A program made the position numbers and the translations under genes. Under the pieces are notes generated by a model. The model saw only the letters and a program-made list of their open reading frames with translations, was not told where the DNA came from and ran no database searches. 64,000 nucleotides of DNA from an uncultured Arenicella sp. (GTDB lineage: Bacteria; Pseudomonadota; Gammaproteobacteria; Arenicellales; Arenicellaceae): positions 1 to 64,000 of the forward strand of contig CALJWL010000018.1 in assembly GCA_937974565.1 (NCBI GenBank), given 5' to 3'. The stretch's first letter is position 1, and each line of letters starts with the position of its first letter. Of this stretch, positions 33,394 to 36,687 are shown one piece after another.

Positions 33394-33837
33394 TTACTTA
33401 TCTTTAAGTAGCCAATAATCAAGAGATAGCTTATTACCACCGTACCCAATCAACATGGCAAGAACACTCATCCACAGGTAATGTTGATGATCGTCAAAGC
33501 CTGGCACAAAAAACTGAATAACAATCGTCATAATCAGCAGGCCAGCAGCACCAAATCGGGTCAACAAGCCAACAAACAAGAGTATTGGCAAGGTTAGTTC
33601 TCCAATGGTTGCCAGGTACGCTGGAATCTCTGGTGGTAATGATTCTGGCAAAAAGGAGATTACAAATTCGCCGTCTTCCGCAGGGTCGAACAGCTCTACT
33701 GTTTCTTCCATGTCGCTGAACTTAGCGGTGCCTGAACTCCAGAAAATTAGGCCGACATAAACTCGCCCAAACAGGTTAGCCAGAGGTGCAATGATTGCAG
33801 AGCAAAAGCCGCAAAATGCTAGATATAAGTTTTTCAT
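33394..33837 (-). CDS. DoxX-family membrane protein of the bufferin-type locus
   Basis: 147 residues with four membrane segments near 5-35, 75-95, 97-118 and 122-140. DoxX family features are LFGRVYVGLIFWSSGTAKF near residue 22 and IGELTLPILLFVGLLTRF near residue 77. An AGGAAA ribosome site precedes the ATG at 33837. DoxX proteins are common companions (BufD) in bufferin operons with DUF2282 and MNIO genes, where their role is not settled; a membrane redox or quinone-linked role is an inference. It follows the fused MNIO gene by about 140 bases. Confidence 0.9.
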   Translation of the reverse strand: MKNLYLAFCGFCSAIIAPLANLFGRVYVGLIFWSSGTAKFSDMEETVELFDPAEDGEFVISFLPESLPPEIPAYLATIGELTLPILLFVGLLTRFGAAGLLIMTIVIQFFVPGFDDHQHYLWMSVLAMLIGYGGNKLSLDYWLLKDK

Positions 33838-33978
33838 TTTTATTTTTCCTAGTCTAGTGGTTGGAAATAATAGGTGGTTGGAAATAGTGAGTAGTTGGAA
33901 AAATTCCGCTTAAATTTAAAAACCCTAAGGGTTGATTTAAATTAAAACGGCTTTCAAGCAAGTATTTAAGCTAACGTA

Positions 33979-35676
33979 TTAATGCAGCATAGGCTCTTCA
34001 GCTTGGTTTAGTTCCATGGTTGACGCGGGTTTTAGCAATTGTTTTTCAAACAAAAAGCCCAAACAGGCGGTTAACTCTTGTGGTTTTATAGACCCGCTTA
34101 AAGCTTCAATTGCTTGCAATAAATTTTTTGAATTTTGTACTTCTAACAACAATACACGCAAAGAATCGTTCAAGACGTGAGTCTGAACTTCATGGCCAAG
34201 TTTGCAAACCAGCAATGCATCACGGCTTTGATCTAAACTAATGGCTACTTGCCCTTCATATGTGGGCAGAGACTGTCGATAAATTTCGTATATTGGGTAT
34301 TGCGAATCAATAAGACAGGCCGATGAGTTTAATGCCACATCTAATGTTAACAGCTCCTCCTGTGGTATTAAGGTTAGATCGACAATATCACTCACTTTAC
34401 TGTAGTAGGCGTGATGTTGCGCCCACTCATAACGGATCAAATCAGATAAATACGGTAGCGCTGAAAGACCATCAAAATGCTCAACGGCAAGCCGCATGTT
34501 AGCGCCGTAGTTGTGTACATTTCCAGTAGCAGGTGGCGATATCTGAATCAACAATTGCACCATCTGCTTAAAGAATTCCGCCCCCACAACGCCTTGAGTC
34601 GCTGGGTAGACTTCAGCCAGATAGTCTTGCATCGCGCCGAAGAGATTATTCTGATAAACCGCAATACGATGCTGCTGAGAATGAACAACTGCCCTGTGTT
34701 GTGCAACCAAGCCAAACACATCATCTAGAAACTCATTTTGCATGGCGGCTAATGCACTCAAATCAGAGACCACAGGCTGACTTTTTATTTCGATTTTTTT
34801 ATTCGAACCCGCGCCGCCCAAATCACACCTTTTTGTTACGGCTGCAATCAGGTTGTCGGCTTTTTCACACTCATTCAACAACACATCAAATTCAGGAAAA
34901 TCTGAGTCCCACTCAAACAAGGTTGGCCTTGCCCCATGCTGCTTTAGGGTTGTTTCAAACAATTCCCACACGGGTTGGTAAACCGGCTGGTTGTGGGTGT
35001 CTATCAACAATATTTCAGATTTGCCGTCAGTCTTATCACTTATCTTTCGACTCACTTCGGTGTAACCTGCGAGATGGTACTGCCCTATATGCTTTGAGTC
35101 TAAGGCCTGAATATAGGCTTCAGGGTCGCGACCTACGTTAACGGCGCTCACGTAAATATTATTCACATCCACCAACAAACCACAGCCAGTGCGTTGAGCC
35201 AGTGTATTTAGAAATTCGGGTTCGGGAATTTGTAGTTGATCAAAGACTAAATAGTTAGACGGGTTTTCGATCAGTATCTGTCGCCCAAGTGTTTGCTGCA
35301 TTTGATCAATGTGTTGACACATTAATCCCAGCGCCTGTTCGGTGAGAGGCAACGGCAACAAGTCCGGTATATGGCGGTGCGAATAAGCACTCCAAGCCAA
35401 ATGTTCAGAAACAATGAATGGCTCCACATCGCTCACAAGTGATTTTAACTGTTCAAGGTGGGGCTTATCCAGATTATCAGCACGCCCTAGAGATAAACCA
35501 ACACCATGCAAACTCACTGGATAATCTTTACGCACCGCAAGCAACTGAGATCGCGCAATTGACTCACCAAAATAATTTTCCGAATGGGCTTCAAGGAACC
35601 CTAACGCAGGCTCTTCGACAAAGAAGGTGTTGAACAACTCAGGGCGAACGCCTAAACCGCACTTGATAATCGACAT
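33979..35676 (-). CDS. bufBC: MNIO (DUF692) and DUF2063 fusion, bufferin maturation enzyme
   Basis: 565 residues made of two domains that are usually separate genes. Residues about 1-285 are the MNIO/DUF692 TIM-barrel oxidase with iron-ligand candidates H57 (SLHGVG), H92 (SEHLAWS), E137/N138 (IENPSN), D170/N173 (LLVDVNNIYVSA), H201 (HLAGY), D226/H228 (IDTHNQ) and E255/D257 (FEWDSDFP). Residues about 308-545 are a DUF2063 domain, with RIAVYQNNLFGAMQDYL near 337 and YEWAQHHAY. In known bufferin systems MNIO oxidises cysteines of the precursor with help from the DUF2063 protein. The fusion would fix their ratio at 1:1. Domain calls are secure; the substrate is inferred from the neighbouring DUF2282 gene. 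Confidence 0.92.
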   Translation of the reverse strand: MSIIKCGLGVRPELFNTFFVEEPALGFLEAHSENYFGESIARSQLLAVRKDYPVSLHGVGLSLGRADNLDKPHLEQLKSLVSDVEPFIVSEHLAWSAYSHRHIPDLLPLPLTEQALGLMCQHIDQMQQTLGRQILIENPSNYLVFDQLQIPEPEFLNTLAQRTGCGLLVDVNNIYVSAVNVGRDPEAYIQALDSKHIGQYHLAGYTEVSRKISDKTDGKSEILLIDTHNQPVYQPVWELFETTLKQHGARPTLFEWDSDFPEFDVLLNECEKADNLIAAVTKRCDLGGAGSNKKIEIKSQPVVSDLSALAAMQNEFLDDVFGLVAQHRAVVHSQQHRIAVYQNNLFGAMQDYLAEVYPATQGVVGAEFFKQMVQLLIQISPPATGNVHNYGANMRLAVEHFDGLSALPYLSDLIRYEWAQHHAYYSKVSDIVDLTLIPQEELLTLDVALNSSACLIDSQYPIYEIYRQSLPTYEGQVAISLDQSRDALLVCKLGHEVQTHVLNDSLRVLLLEVQNSKNLLQAIEALSGSIKPQELTACLGFLFEKQLLKPASTMELNQAEEPMLH

Positions 35677-35783
35677 GAATGAACTCTGTTTTATAAGCGC
35701 TCTATTCCAAGAGCCTTATTCATTTAGTCCCTCAAGTGTATCTCGAACTATGTAAATCTGCAGTGACGATGAGTTTTGAAAGA

Positions 35784-35817
35784 AAAACGGCCTTGCGAGA
35801 AATCACAAGGCCGTTTT
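35784..35817 (-). terminator. Terminator between precursor and enzyme genes
   Basis: Perfect 12-bp stem (35784-35795 with 35806-35817), 10-base loop, T-rich after the stem on the minus strand. It lies about 50 bases after the bufA stop and 108 before the fused enzyme start, so it should limit read-through to the enzyme. Confidence 0.8.
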
Positions 35818-35867
35818 ATCAGTTCGAACATTAGAACAATGCGCTCTAATGTAAAAGAACACTTGTC

Positions 35868-36269
35868 TTAGATAGACTCACCATAACGATCCACCAAACG
35901 TCCACCAATAACTTCTGGGTCAGTTTGCTCAGCAATCTTGCCACACGCTTTAGTTAGTTTTTTCTCTTTTGTGCCTTCTGGCGCTTCAGCAGTACCAGCG
36001 CAAATTGCAACAATGTTGCCACAAGTGCCTGCAGGAACTTTAATCCATGCACCAACCATGTTGTCTTCTTTAGCATTACCTTGGCACGAAATACCCAATG
36101 ATTTAACCGCGCAAGTGTTCTTACCACCTTTAACAACGTCAGCACAACGCTCTGATTTAGCAGCTGAGGCTACGGGTGACACACTCATTAGAGCGGTAGC
36201 AATAACAGAAGTCGCTAATGCAGCGCCAATGCTTTTAGATGTTTTTTCAGTGGTTTTAATGTTTTTCAT
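35868..36269 (-). CDS. bufA: DUF2282-type bufferin precursor peptide
   Basis: 133 residues. A hydrophobic segment about 14-34 ends in PVASAAKS, a signal-peptidase site near residue 36-37. The mature part has six cysteines at 42, 53, 62, 83, 90 and 109, with the spacing of DUF2282 bufferins for the first four: [18 protein letters not shown], then WIKVPAGTC. The extra two cysteines and a charged tail to residue 133 make it longer than the typical 90-110 residues. Known bufferins are periplasmic copper-binding RiPPs matured by MNIO. It has its own terminator and heads the locus with the fused enzyme and DoxX downstream. Confidence 0.88.
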
Positions 36270-36291: not shown

Positions 36292-36687
36292 AAATATTTC
36301 GGTTACACTGACTAATGAGAACCGTGAGCAACGAATATGCTTTCACAAAAACAGTCAGTTTATAAGTTTTTCACAATTAATTGCTGATAACGATAGAGAC
36401 ATGCCCAACAATAATTAAGGCCGCTTTATACTGGATACAAAACAATAAATAATTTGTGCGAGTTGTTATATCCAGAAAAGGCGCGCTGAAAACAGCCTTA
36501 ACAAGACCTATTTACTTTAGTAAACCCGCTCGGCGCACACCCTTTATGGATATTAATGATATTTAATCGCATCCAATCATCGTTCGCTAATTAATATAAA
36601 TACAGCTTCTAAATTATAAGCGAAACCAGGTGAACACCCCAATGACAACATTAAAATGTATCGTCACGGACTATTAAAGACTTCGCT
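36292..36687. other. Divergent promoter region of bufA and the MBL gene
   Basis: About 390 AT-rich bases between the divergent bufA and MBL-hydrolase genes. Promoters of both are expected here. I see no clear metal-regulator operator by eye and no sigma-factor gene nearby. Confidence 0.5.

Follow-up and report, generated by a model that had tools for sequence, protein, structure and literature searches.

Three open reading frames on the minus strand occupy positions 33394-36269 of the window (the whole 64,000-nucleotide stretch analysed here, from an uncultured Arenicella sp.), encoding a DUF2282 precursor, a fusion of an MNIO enzyme with its DUF2063 partner, and a DoxX membrane protein. Our open reading frame check agrees with the initial annotation on the three genes, their coordinates and their strand, and Pfam profile searches with all three proteins bear out the DUF2282, MNIO (DUF692), DUF2063 and DoxX identities that it had proposed. 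We also ran the search on which it had staked its precursor call, and the DUF2282 model PF10048 matches at 45.6 bits against a cut-off of 22.4. Its description of a compact operon is too simple, given gaps of 191 bp (precursor to enzyme) and 141 bp (enzyme to DoxX) and a strong terminator after the precursor gene. That annotation overlooked three things: an extended six-cysteine precursor limited to the genus, a missing four-cysteine precursor, and the promoter-like element and terminator that belong to the precursor gene itself. The features are as follows.

33394..33837, minus strand: DoxX-family membrane protein (PF07681, 66.5 bits)
33979..35676, minus strand: fused bufferin maturase of 565 aa, an MNIO with a DUF2063, putatively RRE-type partner (BufB-BufC in one chain; PF05114, PF09836, NF050167)
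34027..34494, minus strand: C-terminal region at the RRE-domain position of type 1 partners, residues ~395-550 (sub-cut-off HvfC match)
34495..34740, minus strand: DUF2063 domain of the fused partner, residues 313-394 (PF09836)
34849..35661, minus strand: MNIO catalytic domain, residues 6-276 (PF05114; aligns to PDB 3bww)
35785..35816, minus strand: intrinsic terminator after the precursor gene, a 14-bp stem followed by a T-rich tail
35868..36269, minus strand: DUF2282 (Buf1-like) precursor of 133 aa with six cysteines (PF10048), the sole DUF2282 gene found in the genome
35871..36005, minus strand: C-terminal extension of the precursor with extra Cys 90 and 109, unmatched outside the genus
36006..36152, minus strand: DUF2282 core with the four canonical Cys 42, 53, 62 and 83 (Pfam match, residues 40-88)
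36159..36269, minus strand: probable Sec signal peptide, residues 1-37, including the h-region (read from an alignment of 15 congeners)
36318..36345, minus strand: ECF-type promoter-like element TGAAAG-N17-GTTCT upstream of the precursor gene, conserved in 15 loci

The enzyme passes the cut-off of the NCBIfam MNIO_BufB equivalog (NF050167; 335.5 bits, cut-off 310), which together with the DUF2282 match makes the earlier bufferin-type assignment right. Its MNIO half scores 314 bits against PF05114 and aligns with PDB 3bww (E 7e-52). Residues H57, H92, E137, D170, N173, H201, D226, H228 and E255 are invariant in 17 aligned enzymes, and from general knowledge of the MNIO family and their positions in the 3bww alignment we take them to be the candidate metal site. 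The partner half matches the DUF2063 model at 50.3 bits (cut-off 27.2), and the NCBIfam HvfC model for RRE partners covers residues 327-537 at a score below its cut-off. A PDB sequence search with the partner half returned no relative, 3dee included, and an AlphaFold two-sequence model of the fusion was unusable (pLDDT 32). The DoxX protein clears its Pfam cut-off of 23.6 and scores 52 bits against the HvfX model of NCBIfam, below the cut-off of 80. In one congener, the DoxX frame (L032:8467-8910) carries a stop codon near its start, reflecting a pseudogene, a later start or an error in the metagenome-assembled genome.

Across the genus, represented by 18 genomes with the window's own (G000) included, the fusion forms one continuous frame in 17, that is, in every genome that has the locus. 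Relatives outside the genus carry separate MNIO and DUF2063 genes, many of which overlap or abut, so that a small error, such as a missed stop or a faulty assembly, could in principle join them. We give practically no credence to an artefact of this kind here, because the frame is open in 17 congeneric genomes whose linkers vary and whose 16 other fusions are 49-63% identical to the window's enzyme. Among several hundred MNIO-bearing genomes, we examined 17 loci in which frames were long or joined and found two further true fusions (in G199 and G748), a rarity that is approximate because fusions with a too-diverged partner half would escape alignment. Candidates in G345, G428, G427, G365, G320, G793, G805, G711, G485, G732 and G701 were rejected, as each encodes MNIO and partner in different frames. 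The two additional cases belong to other families of the same class, and their precursors are without the six-cysteine extension. The G199 fusion (L064:1220-2926), confirmed with Pfam, accompanies a BufA2-type precursor (L064:3004-3261) with an ECF sigma factor gene just downstream, whereas the 627-aa G748 fusion (L100:808-2691) has a long Ala/Thr/Gly-rich linker and sits beside a DUF2282 precursor; both apparently arose independently. Partners are described as separate proteins in the main texts of PMC12452194, PMC13097082, PMC12710340 and PMC12538549, which describe no MNIO-DUF2063 fusion. The claim of a new gene arrangement thus stands insofar as the fusion is undescribed in these texts but has to be tempered by its recurrence in at least two other lineages.

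The precursor departs from the standard form in a different way. An alignment of 15 long precursors, out of the 16 genus genomes that have one, displays signal peptide features recognised by inspection alone (a basic start, a hydrophobic stretch and an AxA-type site), and six cysteines are invariant in all 15. The core cysteines are the counterparts of the canonical Buf1 precursor cysteines and retain Buf1 spacing; the other two lie in an extension of ~45 residues that ends in the motif GGRLV(D)xxGES(I). Outside the genus, profile and protein searches covering relatives and 369 genomes of the class returned essentially core-only matches and no extension. Four conserved cysteines are the described state of Buf1 precursors (PMC12452194), so the six-cysteine form appears to be a departure from it, limited to the genus as far as we searched. 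Mean pairwise identity is 85% for the core and 72% for the extension, compared with 66% for the MNIO half, 48% for the partner half and 60% for gluQRS. The six cysteines also prompted us to consider a Buf2 identity, which we dropped because the DUF2282 model matches while the BufA2 model (NF050166) does not, and six cysteines alone are insufficient for Buf2. No NCBIfam model matches the precursor, or that of the L032 congener, at E 0.001; a PDB sequence search found nothing, viral contigs held no relatives, a plasmid search gave distant DUF2282 matches only, and a single-sequence AlphaFold model was unusable (pLDDT 38).

Most genomes of the genus carry a second precursor. A standard four-cysteine DUF2282 gene with the pattern EKCQG...NDC...HxCAG...GTC lies immediately before the enzyme in 11 genomes, and three others (G001, G008 and G011) have it elsewhere in the genome. 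In these three, it is a solitary gene distant from the single MNIO locus (L074, L076 and L075, respectively). We found no four-cysteine precursor in G000 (a 98%-complete draft, in which a second precursor could be hidden), G003 or G016 (81% complete), and G004 keeps the enzyme and the four-cysteine precursor without the six-cysteine form. Long and short precursors have the h-region pattern A[AT]S[VI]LAxAL in common. In the enzyme tree, the nearest relative of the window's enzyme is that of G013 (89/98 support), which has both precursors, making loss of the four-cysteine gene in the window's lineage the simplest reading of the sequences; how often it was lost independently is uncertain because the tree is poorly resolved at deeper nodes. 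A genome search recovered one MNIO gene and one DUF2282 gene in G000, and with both precursors present in its sister, the enzyme seems to have been kept with the six-cysteine form as its only visible substrate.

The long precursor gene also has control elements of its own. A motif agreeing with TGTAAG-N17-GTTCT at 10-11 of 11 positions precedes it in all 15 loci examined, with a spacing of exactly 17 bp each time, and we found no good copy between precursor and enzyme. Across the window's genome, the motif has seven matches against nine for a reversed control; with no enrichment, the case for the element rests on its positional conservation at the locus. One other gene, which encodes a methyltransferase-like secreted protein, has the same motif 34 bp upstream (L078, G000:C15:66826-66853), where it may reflect a shared regulator or chance. 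Many order-level relatives (L021-L031), read by eye, have a GAAACTTTT...GTC element before the bufferin precursor, unlike the genus. Downstream, the window's terminator folds at -25.5 kcal/mol (35775-35830; z -6.2), and most of the 15 loci have a hairpin trailed by T-rich sequence after the long precursor; G005 and G015 are without it, and in G011 it is weak. Between the four-cysteine precursor and the enzyme, most loci have no hairpin of this kind. From this arrangement we infer that the long precursor is produced in excess over its enzyme.

Wherever contigs extend far enough, the locus is flanked throughout the genus by a divergent metallo-hydrolase gene and gluQRS. The exception to its presence is G014, a 99%-complete congener with neither an MNIO nor a DUF2282 gene, in which the metallo-hydrolase gene and gluQRS adjoin with ~110 bp between them; this interval (L096, G014:C6) is an apparent empty site. 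Because the whole locus is missing together there, the bufferin genes seem to come and go jointly. We scanned the neighbouring genes for a metal gene able to decide which metal is involved and found none.

Among characterised systems, the closest comparison is the Buf1 system of Caulobacter vibrioides (CC3254-CC3257), whose gene order (precursor, MNIO, partner, DoxX) is the same as here. Common to both are a DUF2282 precursor in which four core cysteines follow a signal peptide (a probable one here), a DUF2063 partner, whose C-terminal region may here be RRE-type, and, to judge from the promoter-like element, ECF-type control. Here, in contrast, a single chain unites MNIO and partner, the precursor gains two cysteines through its C-terminal extension and is followed by its own terminator, the promoter elements are different and no sigma factor gene is adjacent. 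Judged as a Buf1 cluster, the locus has the DUF2282 match, the spacing of the four core cysteines, the signal peptide (by inspection), an adjacent BufB-type MNIO and a DoxX gene, the last being frequent in Buf1 clusters and not obligatory. Of the type 1 partner, the DUF2063 domain is recognised as part of the MNIO chain, and the region expected to be RRE-type matches HvfC below its cut-off. The gigPABT operon of Cupriavidus metallidurans and the GIG operon of Legionella have the same four functions in the same order, and GigP has four cysteines; GigA and GigB are separate, unlike the fused enzyme here, and the C. metallidurans operon adjoins the ECF gene rpoQ and a putative anti-sigma gene. 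The captophorins (fontiphorin, gonophorin and oxazolin) rely on the same MNIO-PME1 pair, an MNIO and a type 1 partner, which together install 5-thiooxazole on a cysteine-rich peptide, but their precursors have EGKCG repeats, as opposed to the DUF2282 precursor and fused enzyme parts found here.

Taken together, we consider it quite probable that the locus is a variant form of the bufferin (Buf1/captophorin) system that works as follows. The precursor would be synthesised in the cytoplasm from an ECF-type, stress-responsive promoter, with transcription mostly ending after its gene, which would leave more peptide than enzyme. Binding by the fused MNIO-partner chain would follow, probably partly through the signal peptide, for which there is preliminary evidence in Buf1 recognition (PMC12452194), and the enzyme would oxidise core cysteines to thiooxazoles, by analogy the second and third. 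Sec would then export the modified peptide to the periplasm, where it would buffer excess copper. The first and fourth cysteines would form the known disulphide, the two added cysteines most likely a second one holding the extension, and DoxX may serve as a membrane or redox part. Most likely, the product is a thiooxazole peptide that binds copper in the periplasm; we infer both the modification and the metal from the characterised relatives. The profile matches, the invariant candidate metal-site residues, the syntenic locus and its joint absence in G014 all point to a bufferin, as do the stronger conservation of the precursor core and extension relative to the enzyme halves and the h-region pattern shared by both precursors. 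The lack of an NCBIfam match for the precursor speaks against it, and a precursor gene with a promoter-like element and a terminator to itself would also fit an unmodified stand-alone paralogue.

That paralogue is the main rival. The six-cysteine DUF2282 protein might bind metal or act in redox chemistry in the periplasm through plain thiols or disulphides, with the enzyme a relic of a lost four-cysteine precursor. It is the four-cysteine gene that sits directly before the enzyme, while a separate promoter-like element and, in most loci, a separate terminator accompany the long precursor; G004, with no six-cysteine form, keeps enzyme and four-cysteine precursor together, and PMC12452194 allows that some precursors may be unmodified. 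Retention of the enzyme where the long form stands alone argues against this: it is intact in the window's genome, G003 and G016, which fall on separate branches of the poorly resolved enzyme tree, and the six-cysteine precursor retains the core cysteine spacing and shares the signal peptide pattern. We therefore regard an unmodified paralogue as unlikely. Quite unlikely, in our view, is a modified peptide directed at some metal or stress other than copper, for example gold, cadmium, chromate or oxidative stress. In Caulobacter, bufferin-type operons belong to the sigma-F regulon, a regulon responsive to chromate and cadmium (PMC3511200), and the promoter-like element here looks ECF-type. However, the elements here are unlike the sigma-F consensus GTAACC-N16-CGAA (PMC3511200), and characterised Buf1 and related thiooxazole peptides bind copper (PMC12452194, PMC13097082). 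A further, rather unlikely reading would extend the variant-bufferin model, with the fused enzyme also modifying Cys 90, Cys 109 or both in the extension, or with the extension forming a second metal site. The mature peptide would then differ in metal stoichiometry and count as a new kind of Buf1, and its single-chain maturase would have co-evolved to accommodate the longer substrate.

The known part of this locus is the bufferin system; the departures are the fusion of MNIO and partner and the genus-specific six-cysteine precursor. PMC12710340 reports no recognition motif for DUF2063-type RREs, and for work on how an MNIO and its partner recognise secreted cysteine precursors, a natural single-chain enzyme spares the reconstitution of two subunits. 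With one enzyme facing two alternative precursors, and some genomes holding only one of them, the genus offers natural substrate comparisons. The six-cysteine form, finally, widens the rule of four conserved cysteines in Buf1 precursors.
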